From positions 62,001-126,000 of the forward strand of contig JAFYXJ010000006.1 in NCBI GenBank assembly GCA_017546205.1: a stretch of DNA of 64,000 bases, read 5' to 3'. Below the pieces are notes generated by a model. The model was not told the DNA's origin, did no database searches, and was given only the letters and a program-made list of their open reading frames with translations. Shown here in pieces: positions 32,223-64,000 of the stretch (the first letter of the stretch is position 1; each line of letters begins with the position of its first letter). The position numbers and the translations under genes were made by a program. This stretch comes from Clostridia bacterium. Its GTDB lineage: Bacteria; Bacillota; Clostridia; Monoglobales; Monoglobaceae.

Positions 32223-32231
32223 AGGAAATTT
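32205..32231 (-). terminator. Weak terminator at the end of the shape operon
   Basis: AAATTTCC pairs with GGAAATTT, followed on the minus strand by five T residues. The hairpin overlaps both the PBP2 stop codon and the mgsA -35 box. It is A/T-rich, so termination may be partial. Confidence 0.45.
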
Positions 32232-34317
32232 ACAGAACTCCGGAAATATTGCGTTCCTCCTTAAGTTCCATATAGGCATCCATAATCTGCCGTGCCGTCT
32301 TTGCGGCAAAATGGCTGGTTGCACCGTGCTCAATCACGACGGCAACCACAATTTCCGGATTCTCATAGGGGGCAAACCCCACAAACAACACATTATCTCT
32401 GCCATCGGGAACCTCTGCCGTTCCGGTCTTTCCCGCCGCCTGATATTCTGCCGTTTCAAATGCCGCTTTGGCGGTTCCGTTGGTCACCACCTGCCGCATC
32501 CCCTGTTTCACTTTCTGGTAGGTGGATTCCTGAATGGAGGTCTCGGAAAGCACCTGCGGATTATTCCGCATCACCACCTCACCGGTGTCATAGTCCACCA
32601 CATCTCCCACCAGATGGAGTCGATACCGCCGTCCCCGATTCAGGACGGTGGAAATATAACTTGCCAGTTGTGCCGGGGTAAACTGGTTGTCCGACTGCCC
32701 GATTGCCGCCTGAATCACATCGCCGGGGTTCCAGTCAAGTCCCAGTTTTTCCCGATGTTCGGGGCCGGCTACCAATCCTTTGCTTTCGCCCAGTTCAATG
32801 CCGGTGACTTCGCCCAGACCGAACCGTCTTGCGTAATCGTTCAAGGTTTCAATACCGCACAGCCGCCCCACCTCAAAGAAGAAGTAGTTACAGGAGACAC
32901 CCAACGCCTCTGCCACCTCAATATAGCCGTGGGTTTCCCGTTTCTGGGAATACACCAGACAGGTTGGCTGATAATCCTTGAAATAGGTGTACTTTCCCTG
33001 ATCCTGAATGTAGGTATTGGGGCTGATAACCCCTGTTTCCAGTCCGGCAATGGCGGTCAGCGGTTTGAAGGTAGAGCCGGGAGAATACAACCCGTCCAGT
33101 ACCCGATTGATCAAAGGTTTTGCCTTGGAGGCAAGAAGTTCGTCATAATCTTCCACAAAGGTTGCAGGGTCATAATTGGGATAAGACGCCAATGCCAAAA
33201 CCTCTCCCGTACTGGGAATCATGGCAATCGCACCCCCTGCGCCGTTTCTTCCTACCGCTGCAGAGATATTTTCTTTCAAGGCTTTTTCTGCGGCAAGTTG
33301 CAGTTGACAATCCAAGGTCAGACGGGCATAGTTTCCCGCCTTAACTGCCTGACTTTCCAAAATCTCGGTCTGTCCGCCGCCTTTCGCCATGGACACACTC
33401 TTATATCCGTCTTTTCCGCGCAGATACTGTTCCAAAACCTTTTCCAGTCCGTCTTTGCCAATGATATCATTCATGCCATAGCCTTTGCTTTTCAGTTCCT
33501 GATATTCCTCGGCGTAAATTTTGTCACACCGTCCCAGAATATGAGACGCACAGTTTTTATGGGCATATTCCCGAATGGGTTCCATCTCAATGGCAACCCC
33601 CGGGTATTTTTCGCTGTTTTCTTTGATAATCTGCAGAGTTTCCTCCCCGATATCCTTCGCCAGAATATACGGATTGCTAACCCCGAACCCGCTTTCTTCC
33701 ATGGCGTAGCGCGCCGAGACAATCACACTTGCCTCCCAATCGGAATACTTGCCCGACAGCCGATACCGGCTACGGTAATATTCCGCAATTTCACGGGCGG
33801 AGGAATAACCGGTCAGTTTTTTCTTTTCTTTCCAGTCCTCCAGTTTTTTCTGCTGGGCGTTCAGGATTTTCTCCGCCGTCTCGCCGTCGTCATTCTCCCT
33901 TGCTTCCTTTACCTGTTCGAGGGCGTCTTTGCCATCTGTAAACGTAAACGCAAATCCCTCGCCAACCTTATCATAGAAGACAGGGAAGGACGATTCCAGT
34001 TCTCCGCCACGTTCCAGCACCATGGTACACAAATCCAGAATTTCATCATTGAATGCATCATTTTCAATACTGATTTTCTGCAGTTGGATGGAATACCCCA
34101 TCCGATTTCTCACAAACGGCTCACCGTATCGGTCCAGAATCTCGCCTCTGGGCGCCTTGACAGGATACGCCTGCACCAGACGCTTTTCTGCCGTGGAACG
34201 GTATTGACTGCCTTGTACCACCTGCAGGTCAAATAAGCGTATGATGCAGGTAAGCACCAATACGCCTATGATTGCCAGTATCACAAGATATCTTCCGTTT
34301 GGATTCCGTCCGTTCAT
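32230..34317 (-). CDS. mrdA: Penicillin-binding protein 2 (class B transpeptidase)
   Basis: 695 residues: a single N-terminal membrane anchor (about 10-30), the class B PBP dimerisation domain (50-340) and the transpeptidase domain. Active-site motifs are visible: SXXK as STFK in YSPGSTFKPL, SXN as SCN in GVSCNYFF, and KTG as KTGT in AAGKTGTAEV. It cross-links side-wall peptidoglycan with RodA and MreBCD on the outer face of the membrane. It is the last gene of the operon behind mreB-mreC-mreD, the standard elongasome order. Its partner rodA lies in this window but 29 kb away on the other strand. Confidence 0.93.
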   Translation of the reverse strand: MNGRNPNGRYLVILAIIGVLVLTCIIRLFDLQVVQGSQYRSTAEKRLVQAYPVKAPRGEILDRYGEPFVRNRMGYSIQLQKISIENDAFNDEILDLCTMVLERGGELESSFPVFYDKVGEGFAFTFTDGKDALEQVKEARENDDGETAEKILNAQQKKLEDWKEKKKLTGYSSAREIAEYYRSRYRLSGKYSDWEASVIVSARYAMEESGFGVSNPYILAKDIGEETLQIIKENSEKYPGVAIEMEPIREYAHKNCASHILGRCDKIYAEEYQELKSKGYGMNDIIGKDGLEKVLEQYLRGKDGYKSVSMAKGGGQTEILESQAVKAGNYARLTLDCQLQLAAEKALKENISAAVGRNGAGGAIAMIPSTGEVLALASYPNYDPATFVEDYDELLASKAKPLINRVLDGLYSPGSTFKPLTAIAGLETGVISPNTYIQDQGKYTYFKDYQPTCLVYSQKRETHGYIEVAEALGVSCNYFFFEVGRLCGIETLNDYARRFGLGEVTGIELGESKGLVAGPEHREKLGLDWNPGDVIQAAIGQSDNQFTPAQLASYISTVLNRGRRYRLHLVGDVVDYDTGEVVMRNNPQVLSETSIQESTYQKVKQGMRQVVTNGTAKAAFETAEYQAAGKTGTAEVPDGRDNVLFVGFAPYENPEIVVAVVIEHGATSHFAAKTARQIMDAYMELKEERNISGVL

Positions 34318-34329
34318 AACTTGTAACTC

Positions 34330-34830
34330 CTAAGAAATTTGTCTCAATCTCATCCATTTCATGGTTTTTGCTATCACAAAAGAGAGCAAAAACGCCACCG
34401 GCAGTTGATACAACGCCTCAATCAGACCAATGCGAAAGACCGCCGTAACAAAGGAGATATCTCCCCATACCGTCATCCGCACCAGATAATAAACCACTGC
34501 ACACAAAAGGGTTCCCGCACCTGCCGTTGCACAAATTGCCAACCGCTTGCCTCCGCTGAAAAAACGGGTGCCCAGAATCCCTGCCATAACCCCCAGATAC
34601 AGATACAAAAGGGCATCAACCCCCATCAGCCTGCCAATCAAAAGGTCATAGACAAGTCCAAACAACGCACCGGCGATACCGCCCTCCAAAGGGCCCCGAT
34701 AATAGCCTGCAATCACCACAAAGCACAGAAACAGATTGGGGTGAATACCAAACAGGGTCAGTTCACAAATCAAGGTGGGTTGCAATAAGGTCAAAAGCAC
34801 CAGCCACAACCCATACCACAGGATTTTCAT
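34330..34830 (-). CDS. mreD: Rod shape-determining protein MreD
   Basis: 166 residues, an integral membrane protein with about five hydrophobic segments, typical of MreD in length and in the FLCFVVIAGYYRGPLEGGIAG and FGLVYDLLIGRLMGVDALLYLYLG stretches. The start overlaps the mreC stop by four bases, giving translational coupling. It bridges MreC and the PBP2/RodA pair in the elongasome. Confidence 0.9.
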   Translation of the reverse strand: MKILWYGLWLVLLTLLQPTLICELTLFGIHPNLFLCFVVIAGYYRGPLEGGIAGALFGLVYDLLIGRLMGVDALLYLYLGVMAGILGTRFFSGGKRLAICATAGAGTLLCAVVYYLVRMTVWGDISFVTAVFRIGLIEALYQLPVAFLLSFVIAKTMKWMRLRQIS

Positions 34831-35843
34831 TCTCTCAACTCCTGTCCATGAGAAGATTCCTGCTGTTCAGGTTTGGCAGTCGCCTTGGGGGTCGGTTTCG
34901 GTGTCGCCTTGGGGGTCGGTCTGGGGGTGGATACGGGGGTTTCCTCCGCATCCTCGTCCTCATCTTCCATCTCAGGGTCCACATCCGGCATGCTGATAAC
35001 CTCCACCGAATGCAAAAGCACAAACACCTGACGGAGTTTGCTCAGTTCCGCCATAGGCTGAACCACCGCACATTTGGACATATTGGTATTGTCCTCGGAA
35101 ATTTCCAGAACGGTTCCAATCAGCAATCCTCTGGGGTAAACCCCTCCCATACCGGAGGTTTCGATATAGTCGCCCTCTTCCAGTTCCGCATCCCGGGAAA
35201 GATAGCCAAGCCGGCATTTTCCGGCAAACCGCAGAGAGGAATCCCCTTCAACGACGCCTACTTCACGGGTGCGGTTCACAATGGCACCCACACCGCATTC
35301 CGGATTGAGAATGGTCACAACCTCCGCCCAATCATTGCCCACACGGCTGATTTTGCCAATAAGTTCTCTGCCGGCACCCAGGACCGGCTGACCCTCACAG
35401 ATGCCTTGGTCACTGCCTCGATTGATTATCAGAGTGGCAAACCAGTTGGAGGGGTCTTTTCCGGTGACCTCTGCCGCCAGAAGTTCCAGTTCCGGATGGG
35501 TTTTCTTTAAGTCCAGCATGGTACGGAGTTCCTGATTCTCCAGTTCCATTCCTCTGCTGTCCTTGAGCCGCCGATCCAGTTGGATATTTTCCAACCGCAA
35601 CGCCTCGTTCTCCTCCCGCAGTGCCTTAACCGCGCCAAAATAGGTAAACAGGTTGGAAACCCAGTTTCCCCCGTCACGGATGGCGCCCTGCATCGGCGAG
35701 GTCAGTCCCAATGTCGCCTCTTCCGCAAGAGAGGCACCCTCTCCGGCTGCAATGGCGGCAAAAACGCCGATGACAATGGCAAGTATCAGGGTTGCCCCAA
35801 TCAACAGGACAAGCCCCTTGTGTTCCTCAAAAAAATATTTCAT
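34827..35843 (-). CDS. mreC: Rod shape-determining protein MreC
   Basis: 338 residues: N-terminal transmembrane helix (about 10-30), coiled coil (about 70-110, ALREENEALRLENIQLDRRL) and the two-lobed beta domain (to about 280) with the conserved GSDQGICEGQPVL and GVGAIVNRTREVGVVEG blocks. The last 50 or so residues are an unusual acidic then Pro/Thr/Lys tail (EDEDEDAEETP, repeats of TPKATPKP) beyond the normal MreC end; on the outer face this could contact the wall. Lies between mreB (six-base gap) and mreD (overlap). Confidence 0.92.
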   Translation of the reverse strand: MKYFFEEHKGLVLLIGATLILAIVIGVFAAIAAGEGASLAEEATLGLTSPMQGAIRDGGNWVSNLFTYFGAVKALREENEALRLENIQLDRRLKDSRGMELENQELRTMLDLKKTHPELELLAAEVTGKDPSNWFATLIINRGSDQGICEGQPVLGAGRELIGKISRVGNDWAEVVTILNPECGVGAIVNRTREVGVVEGDSSLRFAGKCRLGYLSRDAELEEGDYIETSGMGGVYPRGLLIGTVLEISEDNTNMSKCAVVQPMAELSKLRQVFVLLHSVEVISMPDVDPEMEDEDEDAEETPVSTPRPTPKATPKPTPKATAKPEQQESSHGQELRE

Positions 35844-35849
35844 AGTTCC

Positions 35850-36848
35850 TTACAGGAATCGGCTTTTCCGATTCATCTCCAATAAAAAGTCCAGAGACAT
35901 ACCTGCCCCTTTTGCCGTACATTCCATGGGTTCTTCGGCAATATACACCGGAATCTCGGTCCGGACATTGATTAACCGTCCCAACCCCCGGAGCATCGCA
36001 CCGCCTCCGGCAAGGACAATACCGCTTTCCATGATGTCCGACGCCAATTCCGGCGGCGTGTTCTCCAATGCCATCTTGATGGCATCCACAATGGCTTCTC
36101 CATGTTCCCGCATGGCTTCCCGCACCTCGGCGGTGCTGAAAGATTCCACTCTGGGAAGTGCCGTTGCCATATCCCGTCCGTTGATTTCAGCCGTTTCCCG
36201 CGCCCGATGCATATACACCGAACCGATGTCGCATTTCACCTGCTCGGCGGTACTGTCCCCGATGGACATATTGTATTTTTTCTTTGCCAGTTGCACAATG
36301 TCGTTGTCGAAGGTCTCTCCGGCAACCCGTACCGACTGGGAAACCACCACGCCCCCCAGAGATACCACCGCAACCTCGGTCAGTCCCGCTCCCACATTCA
36401 CAATCATGCTGCCGTGGGGTTGGCTGATGTCAATACCGCATCCGATTGCCGCCGCCAGAGGTTCCTCAATCAGGTATACCTCTCTGGCACCTGCGGTCTG
36501 CGCCGCCTCAATCATGGCACGGCGTTCCACCTCGGTAATACTGCAAGGCACACAAATCACCACACGCACCCGTGTAAAAGAACTTGGCACGGTCTTTTTG
36601 ATGACATATTTCAAAAGTTCCACCGTTCCGCCAAAACTGGTGATAACACCATTGCGGATGGGACGGAGTGCCTGCATGCCGTCCGGCGTTTTGCCCATCA
36701 TGTCGCTGGCATCGTTGCCGATTGCCTGCACCTGACCGGTTTTTCTGCTGCGAATCACCATAGACGGTTCATTGAGCACAATGCCCCGCTTTTTTTCATA
36801 TACCAGAGTATTGGCAGTACCCGGGTCTATTCCCAAATCAATCGGCAT
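35850..36848 (-). CDS. mreB: MreB-type actin homologue with altered phosphate-2 motif
   Basis: 332 residues, standard MreB length. The phosphate-1 loop reads IDPGTANTLVY, the IEEPLAAAIG segment carries the catalytic glutamate, and the C-terminal adenosine loop is VLAGGGAMLRGL. The phosphate-2 motif, normally D-x-G-G-G-T-T-E, reads NVGAGLTE, with Asp to Asn and Thr to Leu changes. The flanking TEVAVVSLGG and IGDSTAEQVK blocks are intact. It directs the peptidoglycan elongation machinery at the inner membrane. Gene order mreB-mreC-mreD-PBP2 supports the role. The altered motif raises the question whether nucleotide hydrolysis is slowed or lost; a second normal MreB elsewhere is possible. Confidence 0.9.
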   Translation of the reverse strand: MPIDLGIDPGTANTLVYEKKRGIVLNEPSMVIRSRKTGQVQAIGNDASDMMGKTPDGMQALRPIRNGVITSFGGTVELLKYVIKKTVPSSFTRVRVVICVPCSITEVERRAMIEAAQTAGAREVYLIEEPLAAAIGCGIDISQPHGSMIVNVGAGLTEVAVVSLGGVVVSQSVRVAGETFDNDIVQLAKKKYNMSIGDSTAEQVKCDIGSVYMHRARETAEINGRDMATALPRVESFSTAEVREAMREHGEAIVDAIKMALENTPPELASDIMESGIVLAGGGAMLRGLGRLINVRTEIPVYIAEEPMECTAKGAGMSLDFLLEMNRKSRFL

Positions 36849-37437
36849 ACTTCTCTCCTCCTAATCGGATATCAAATTCTTCCTCAAGCATTCGTCCCAG
36901 ATGGCAAAGGGGCAGTCCCACCACGTTAAAGTAGTCGCCGTCAATCCCCTCTACAAACAGAGCACCCAACTCCTGAATCCCGTAGGCACCTGCTTTGTCC
37001 ATAGGCTCGCCGGATGCAATGTATCGGCGGATTTCCTCACGGGATATGGCACGGAACCGGACTTTGGTCACCTCAAACTCGGTGACACTTTTTCCGCTTC
37101 CGGTATCCAGTACCGAAATTCCGGTATACACCTGATGGGTACAGCCGGAAAGACGGGACAGCATGGAAAACGCCTCTTTTTCATCTTTGGGTTTTCCCAG
37201 AATCTCCCCGTCCAGAACCACCACCGTATCGGCAGCAAGAATCAGGGCATCTCCTGTCACCCGTTTTGCAATATGCTCGGCTTTTTCCGCCGCCAGACGC
37301 ATCACTGCACGGGCAGGACTTTCCCCCGGAATCTGTTCTTCGGGGCTGTCATCCACCATCACCTTAAAATCATCCACCAACCGGCCCAGAAGTTCCTGAC
37401 GTCTGGGCGACTTGGATGCTAAAATCCATTCTTTCAT
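36838..37437 (-). CDS. maf: Maf-family nucleoside triphosphate pyrophosphatase
   Basis: 199 residues. N-terminal LASKSPRRQELLGRL is the Maf signature, with VDDSPEEQIPGESP, LAADTVVVLDGEILGKPKD and the closing YFNVVGLPLCHL blocks. Maf proteins hydrolyse dTTP/UTP or modified nucleotides and are commonly found with mreB and dut. The 3' end overlaps the mreB start by 11 bases and the start abuts the dut stop. Confidence 0.93.
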   Translation of the reverse strand: MKEWILASKSPRRQELLGRLVDDFKVMVDDSPEEQIPGESPARAVMRLAAEKAEHIAKRVTGDALILAADTVVVLDGEILGKPKDEKEAFSMLSRLSGCTHQVYTGISVLDTGSGKSVTEFEVTKVRFRAISREEIRRYIASGEPMDKAGAYGIQELGALFVEGIDGDYFNVVGLPLCHLGRMLEEEFDIRLGGEKYAD

Positions 37438-63072: not shown

Positions 63073-64000
63073 ATGTTCTATCGTTCGGGACGGTTGCGCG
63101 GACTTGGCCGTAACCTTGACCTGCCCCTGACCATTGCCACGGTACTGGCGGCATTGTTCGGGCTTTTGATGATTGCAAGTGCCGGAGGAACCCGGTATGT
63201 GGTGATTCAGTCTGCGGCATTTCTGGTAGGCGTGGGCGGTGTCGTCGCCCTGATGATTCTGGATTATCAGTATCTGTCCCAGATTGCACTGCATCTGTAC
63301 CTTGTGGCAATCGGACTTTTGGTTCTGGTGCTGATTCCGGGACTGGGCGATGTGCAGAACGGTGCCCGCAGTTGGTTCGATTTGGGATTTTTTAACCTGC
63401 AACCGGCAGAACTTGCAAAGATTGTGTTTATCATCACCTTTTCCAAACATCTGGCAGAGACCGAACACCAACTCCATCGGTTTTCGGTGGTTTTGAAACT
63501 GCTTCTCCATCTGGGAAGTTTCTGTGTCCTGATTCTGTTGCAGCCGGACTTTGGAACCGCCATGGTCTTTGTTGCCATTGCGTTGGTGCTTCTGTTCTGT
63601 GCCGGCATTGGCTGGAAGTATATTCTGGGCGGTCTGGGATTGGGTGCTATTACCTTTCCTCTGGCATGGTTCTTCTTTTTGCAGGACTACCAAAAAAACC
63701 GTATCCTCACCCTGTTCCAACCGGAACTGGACCCCACCGGTGCCGGTTATCACGTGATGCAGTCCAAAATTGCAGTAGGCTCCGGCAGAATTTTCGGAAC
63801 CGGACTGTTCAAAGGCTCCAGTCAGGTCAACAACCTGCTTCCGGAACGGCATACCGACTTTATTTTCTCCGCCGTCTGCGAGGAACTGGGTATGCTGGGG
63901 GGCGTACTGGTGATTTTGCTGTTGAGTTTTTTGATTATCCGTTGTATTTACATCGGCATCAATGCCAGAAACCGTCTGGGAACCTATATGTGCGTCGGCG
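63073..64000 (+). CDS. rodA: RodA-type SEDS glycosyltransferase, 5' part
   Basis: 309 residues visible; the end runs off the window. Multi-pass membrane protein of the FtsW/RodA/SpoVE (SEDS) family: NGARSWFDLGFFNLQPAEL, LLQPDFGTAMVF and GSSQVNNLLPERHTDFIFSAVCEELG contain conserved loop residues including the catalytic aspartate of HTDF. It polymerises lipid II glycan strands with PBP2. GGAG lies eight bases before the ATG. RodA rather than FtsW is inferred from mltG and the shape operon in the same window. Confidence 0.9.
   Translation, partial: MFYRSGRLRGLGRNLDLPLTIATVLAALFGLLMIASAGGTRYVVIQSAAFLVGVGGVVALMILDYQYLSQIALHLYLVAIGLLVLVLIPGLGDVQNGARSWFDLGFFNLQPAELAKIVFIITFSKHLAETEHQLHRFSVVLKLLLHLGSFCVLILLQPDFGTAMVFVAIALVLLFCAGIGWKYILGGLGLGAITFPLAWFFFLQDYQKNRILTLFQPELDPTGAGYHVMQSKIAVGSGRIFGTGLFKGSSQVNNLLPERHTDFIFSAVCEELGMLGGVLVILLLSFLIIRCIYIGINARNRLGTYMCVG

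Follow-up and report, generated by a model that had tools for sequence, protein, structure and literature searches.

The operon-encoded MreB of Monoglobaceae has lost catalytic residues and is probably slow to hydrolyse ATP

We analysed a 64,000-nucleotide stretch of DNA, hereafter the window, from contig JAFYXJ010000006.1 of a Clostridia bacterium (GCA_017546205.1), the source genome (G000) being a 1.48-Mb draft in 30 contigs that is 74% complete. An mreB gene lies on the minus strand at positions 35850–36848, and its 332-residue frame is open throughout. The protein scores 428.4 bits against the curated model NF010539 (cut-off 293), 397.3 bits against TIGR00904 (cut-off 365.75) and 411 bits against PF06723. 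Downstream on the same strand follow mreC (34827–35843; TIGR00219, 124.8 bits, cut-off 92.75; PF04085), mreD (34330–34830; TIGR03426, 38.6 bits, cut-off 34.85) and mrdA, encoding PBP2 (32230–34317; TIGR03423, 483 bits, cut-off 455), and these profile matches confirm the mreBCD–PBP2 operon context proposed in the initial annotation. Upstream, an open reading frame from the ORF list (36838–37437, minus strand) overlaps the start of mreB; judged by reading, we take it to be Maf-like. The rodA gene is encoded on the strand opposite to mreB, starts some 26 kb away from it and is cut by the end of the window (63073–64000, plus strand); its TIGR02210 match, at G000:C27:125118-126161, is over the cut-off.

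The nearest solved structures are MreBs, 7zpt, 1jce and 4cze among them, at no more than 338 bits. The window protein falls below the MreBH cut-off (NF010540, 364 bits against 515); its gene adjoins mreC and it groups with the clade of operon copies described below, not with that of second copies, which argues against a designation as Mbl or MreBH. An AlphaFold2 model computed on a two-row alignment had a mean pLDDT of 31.6 and was set aside.

Residues are numbered here as in Caulobacter crescentus MreB, by alignment to 4cze anchored on E140, T167 and E169 (PMC4051119, PMC9597168). The phosphate-2 motif, usually DIGGGT[TS]E, reads NVGAGLTE in the window protein (residues 151–158; 36375–36398, minus strand), corresponding to D162N, I163V, G165A and T167L. 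The departure from DIGGGTTE had been read correctly in the initial annotation, and a sequencing error is excluded as its cause: the motif is NVGAGVTE in Ructibacterium gallinarum (L040) and NVGAGITE in a third genome of the genus (L003). E140 and T167 are reported to hold the water that attacks the γ-phosphate (PMC4051119), and D162 to lie within the Mg coordination sphere (D156 in Spiroplasma citri; PMC9195046). Because T167L strikes a residue that holds the attacking water, the change from Thr to Leu, and not the Asn, appears to be the more telling one in the motif. The catalytic Glu is present (E129, equivalent to E140; codon 36462–36464, minus strand), as is E158 at position 169, and the catalytic set E140...T167-X-[D/E]169 is incomplete through L156 at position 167. 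A published figure covering 4832 sequences reports this set as kept in 95.8% of non-Spiroplasma MreBs (PMC9597168), and the window protein stands outside that majority because its Thr is replaced.

The other actin-fold motifs had been described as intact, which they are not. The phosphate-1 loop reads DPGT (P9; codon 36822–36824), D81 is replaced by S71 (36636–36638) and D303 by G290 (35979–35981, all minus strand), and V324, D189 and D76 are replaced by T311, E178 and N66. The last two changes are less telling, since Glu at 189 and Asn at 76 each occur in 2 of 102 operon MreBs from other families. Two genus relatives have DLGT in the phosphate-1 loop, against DPGT in the window, where the Pro may reflect an erroneous base call or strain variation. 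D8, G10 and T11 of this loop are present, as are the phosphate-2 glycines G153 and G155 (G164 and G166).

The motif change is not private to the source genome. We examined 38 genomes of its GTDB family (f1, Monoglobaceae by its named member), each with at least one MreB; G022 among them is, we assume, Monoglobus pectinilyticus, of a presumably coccoid genus. Of the 72 family loci, 36 lie beside mreC and are termed operon copies (an mreC match above 30 bits in the retrieved stretch, scored with an HMM built from 133 of the loci studied here), and 36 do not. L040 (the same locus as L004), L041 (a 26% match) and L126 and L127 (the L097 and L098 loci) were excluded as rows. All but two of the 38 genomes yielded an operon copy; G001 and G023, in which none was found, are drafts with a completeness of 72 and 81%. 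The RodA match exceeds its cut-off in 36 of the 38, and the remaining two show only lower SEDS-type matches.

Of the 36 operon copies, 31 are without E140 (Ser in 12, Ala in 8, Lys in 8, Thr in 2, Gln in 1), 11 without T167 (Ile in 7, Val in 3, Leu in 1, with one Ser scored as kept) and 8 without D162, which is always replaced by Asn. E140, T167 or both are gone in 35 of 36, in 8 of 9 genera, and this loss is the mark of the family; the exception, L012 of genus g5, has D162N alone with the E140/T167 pair intact, so that at least one of the three residues is gone in every copy. D81 is likewise lost in all 36 (Asn in 25, Ser in 6, Gly in 4, Ala in 1), and D303 is Gly in all 36. At the same time no variation is seen at D16, G18, G164, G166, E169, D192 or K216, or at the interface residues D284 and V118, and position 63 is Arg or Lys throughout. 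With the canonical MreB of mreBCD operons (Bacillus subtilis, Escherichia coli, C. crescentus) these proteins share family scores, operon, nucleotide loops, tested interface residues and the company of RodA and PBP2; unlike it, they are without the catalytic Glu and/or Thr in 35 of 36 cases and without D81 and D303 in all. These are variant forms of a known protein that extend across the family; no new system is involved.

Outside the family we sampled the class in part: 174 genomes matched, and the best-match loci of 24 new genomes, of another 60 and of 30 divergent ones, with their second copies left out, were added to earlier ones. Seven further matches were omitted, mostly contig-end fragments or second copies (G037, G038, G051, G053, G059). 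E140 and T167 are both kept in 98 of the resulting 102 operon MreBs, which represent 43 families, and the four exceptions come from two of these (L138, L141 and L148 from f21; L157 from f70). D162 alone is changed in five further proteins, to Asn in four and Gly in one; the Asn cases, L195, L206 and L207 (f24) and L151 (f53), have an otherwise full catalytic set. Asn alone is thus a weak sign, because it occurs in operon MreBs that keep E140 and T167. The initial annotation had deduced slow or absent hydrolysis from the Asn and called for a survey of related alleles. That survey leaves slow or absent hydrolysis a likely consequence and changes the reason for it: with Asn in four otherwise canonical MreBs among the 102 operon copies elsewhere, T167L together with the loss of E140 and/or T167 across the family (35 of 36) is likely the better ground.

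A search for a second mreB or mbl, also suggested at the outset, found a copy with a canonical site in the source genome at G000:C23:4232-5194 (LIQEP and DIGGGTTD). Across the family the second copies are mostly Mbl-like, and E140, D162, T167 and an acidic residue at 169 are all kept in 34 of the 36 non-operon loci, the exceptions being L080 (Glu to Ser) and L082, a third copy in G018 (Asn at 169). L080 (G060:C52:6881-7846; ESP) is the sole family second copy without the catalytic Glu, and the operon copy of G060 is also without it. L082 (G018:C23:99-1058) is a third MreB-like protein, 35% identical, whose Asn stands at the E169 position; it is counted among the 36 loci and was left out of the residue, ω/identity and A22-position analyses (35 rows). 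With L082 excluded, every one of the 35 second copies has D81. G007, G028 and G032, drafts 79, 89 and 68% complete, yielded no second copy.

We inferred a tree of 134 proteins with the active-site columns removed, drawing on 36 operon copies and 18 of the 36 other loci from the family and on 49 of the 102 operon copies and 31 of the 39 other loci from outside it. In this quick search, run without bootstrap and containing several long branches, the 36 family operon copies group together (SH-aLRT 98), as do the 18 second copies in a clade of their own (96). Within the operon clade parsimony requires three or more changes at E140, four or more at T167 and three or more at D162; if regain is disallowed, the counts are 6, 4 and 4 losses, with three separate breaks of the E140/T167 pair. 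Because D81 and D303 are both lost in all 36 operon copies, their change would be ancestral, and the pattern suggests that repeated and differing losses of catalytic residues followed.

The operon copy is under purifying selection, weaker than that on the second copy. In 16 overlapping genome pairs with operon dS below 0.5, from genera g2, g3, g6 and g7, our own NG86 script gave ω of 0.022–0.077 for the operon copy against 0–0.020 for the second copy of the same pairs. In the window's own genus, which offered no pair this close, G000–G003 gave 0.097 at a dS of 1.38, near saturation. Median identity is 48% between operon copies and 67% between second copies (528 pairs from 33 two-copy genomes), with the operon copy lower in every pair.

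We propose, with a probability of roughly 0.6, that the operon MreB of Monoglobaceae has been retained alongside a canonical paralogue as a protein that probably hydrolyses ATP slowly, if at all, while still able to bind nucleotide and polymerise. Such a protein would bind nucleotide, polymerise and work with MreC, MreD and PBP2–RodA as usual; it would hydrolyse ATP slowly or not at all, so that its subunits would act as a more static scaffold. Canonical hydrolysis would be supplied by the second, Mbl-like MreB, possibly co-assembling with the operon MreB.

Slow turnover with retained polymerisation is suggested by analogy with Spiroplasma MreB3 and with pocket mutants of Caulobacter. MreB3, from a wall-less helical swimmer, is reported to lack the E..T-X-[DE] set (Glu to Asp, Thr to Lys, Glu to Ser or Thr) and to have low ATPase activity, yet to form double filaments (PMC9597168). 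As in Spiroplasma, the catalytic set is broken in a protein found beside MreBs that retain it. Unlike in MreB3, the first Glu in the family is kept or is Ser, Ala, Lys, Thr or Gln, the Thr is kept or is Ile, Val or Leu (once Ser), and E169 is present in 36 of 36; the MreB3 residue set occurs in none of the 36, the window protein having Glu, Leu and Glu. The family copy also differs in sitting beside mreC, mreD and PBP2, with a RodA gene present too. In Caulobacter, A22-resistant strains with E140G, D162G, G165A or T167A are viable, and normal doubling was reported for the collection (PMC3137890); single losses therefore need not abolish function. The positions are identical to those altered in the family. 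The Caulobacter changes are single laboratory substitutions, whereas those described here are natural and multiple and have become fixed throughout a family in which a second MreB is usual.

Several observations count against the proposal, the viability of these single Caulobacter mutants among them. Hydrolysable nucleotide is reported to be needed for efficient membrane filaments of Geobacillus MreB (PMC10718530), and a non-hydrolysing MreB may on that account depend on a paralogue for access to the membrane. The window genome itself retains E140 and E169. A division of labour between the copies, moreover, does not predict the double loss in G060 or the missing second copies, unless the latter are draft gaps. 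That a two-actin Rod system holds across the whole family, in which the operon MreB serves a structural role and hydrolyses no ATP, turnover being left wholly to the Mbl-like paralogue, is a tentative idea with the odds somewhat against it.

The main rival reading, less likely but live, is that constraint has been relaxed: in a lineage containing cocci the rod-type work of MreB would be unneeded and the operon MreB would be drifting toward loss, kept meanwhile as a docking platform for MreC and MreD. For R. gallinarum, of the GTDB family Monoglobaceae, the published description gives small cocci measuring about 0.6 µm, although it explains the genus name as rod-shaped (PMC8269260). Drift would also fit the lower conservation of the operon copy in 528 of 528 genome pairs and the scatter of losses through the protein, where 39 of 87 near-invariant columns are constant across all 36 operon copies and 48 vary somewhere in the family. 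It accords poorly with the presence of the operon copy in all but two of the 38 genomes, both of these incomplete drafts, with strong purifying selection in close pairs (ω 0.02–0.08), with the invariance of D284, V118 and the nucleotide-binding residues listed above, and with the uniform replacement of D303 by Gly in all 36. General relaxation does explain part of the pattern, since the operon copy evolves faster everywhere and the positions of A22 resistance are not preferentially lost. It would surprise us more if the site were altered but active, E169 and, where present, E140 sustaining near-normal hydrolysis so that the change is near neutral, even though the shape of Caulobacter G165A was reported as near wild type (PMC3137890). 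E169 is indeed kept in 36 of 36, E140 is present in the window genome, and Asn replaces Asp in otherwise canonical MreBs. D165 of E. coli MreB is presumably the phosphate-2 Asp. Against an active site, strains carrying D165A, D165E or D165V are reported as inviable (PMC3599482); S. citri MreB5 with E134A, T161A or D156A has lower ATPase activity (PMC9195046), and replacement of the Thr by Ala or Lys in S. eriocheiris MreB5 slowed Pi release at least 5.6-fold (PMC9597168). Known MreB ATPase rates are themselves about 0.1–0.17 per min (quoted in PMC9195046).

We give very little credence to the idea that an A22-like compound in the nucleotide pocket selected these changes as natural resistance. 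The named resistance positions E140, D162, G165, T167, D189 and V324 are altered in many family members (PMC3137890); yet over the 15 testable positions of 17 named, from a reported collection of 25 (PMC3137890), loss was not greater than at the remaining conserved positions (p = 0.20). A canonical pocket is also retained by the second copy, presumably a target too. The same test on the second copies gave p = 0.04 with a small effect (mean loss 0.058 against 0.032), and the pocket as a whole may account for a minor share of the pattern in both copies.

D83 of E. coli MreB, the Asp of the DGVIAD motif, is by our assumption the counterpart of D81. MreB-D83Y and D83E are reported to suppress a rodZ deletion, and for D83Y an interaction with MreC was not detected by two-hybrid (PMC3599482). 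The equivalent Asp is lost in 36 of 36 family operon MreBs; in contrast to the E. coli suppressors, the family keeps an adjoining mreC and absence of RodZ is not specific to it. Loss of RodZ was considered as the cause of the D81 loss and rejected, as matches to PF13413 (the RodZ HTH) fail to separate the family: they are weak in its 29 matching genomes of 38 (best 29 bits), and of 32 other genomes 22 match, among which two reach 85 bits and none of the others exceeds 34 bits. The ten same-order genomes from other families among these 32 gave three weak matches and seven with none. PF13413 also matches archaeal controls.

The role of ATP hydrolysis by MreB is unsettled, reports conflicting on filaments and membrane binding (PMC10718530, PMC9195046). 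If the tentative family-wide two-actin reading is true, hydrolysis by the MreCD-linked MreB would be dispensable for Rod-complex function, possibly in connection with coccoid growth. What makes the case of interest is that most genomes combine a stripped operon MreB with a canonical second one, and that a coccus belongs to the family. The family, whose MreCD-linked copy is stripped while a canonical one usually sits elsewhere in the genome, and of which one member at least is in culture, would serve as a natural experiment on MreB hydrolysis. A literature search that covered few subscription papers found none on the MreB of Monoglobaceae, and none with MreB as a pseudoenzyme as its topic by title.

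Family f21 was considered as a replicate of the Monoglobaceae pattern and kept apart from the main claim, its losses being mixed across genera; its additional loci (L218–L231) are not part of the 102. The operon MreBs of genera g62 and g35 are without the Glu, while the other sampled f21 genera keep it, and the second copies of g62 and g153 are degenerate. Those of G095 and G141 (L230 and L231) and of G246 (L229) are heavily so, with KKP and DIGSDSTN, and KKP and TIGAGICE. In G095 and G141 the catalytic Glu is lost from both copies, the operon copy having Lys in its place. The initial annotation had suggested that filament turnover may rely on another MreB; judging from the residues, this cannot hold everywhere in the sampled families, because G060, G095 and G141 are without the catalytic Glu in both copies. 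Two mreB-like matches from family f10, L137 and L149, each contain an in-frame TGA, possibly a recoded stop.
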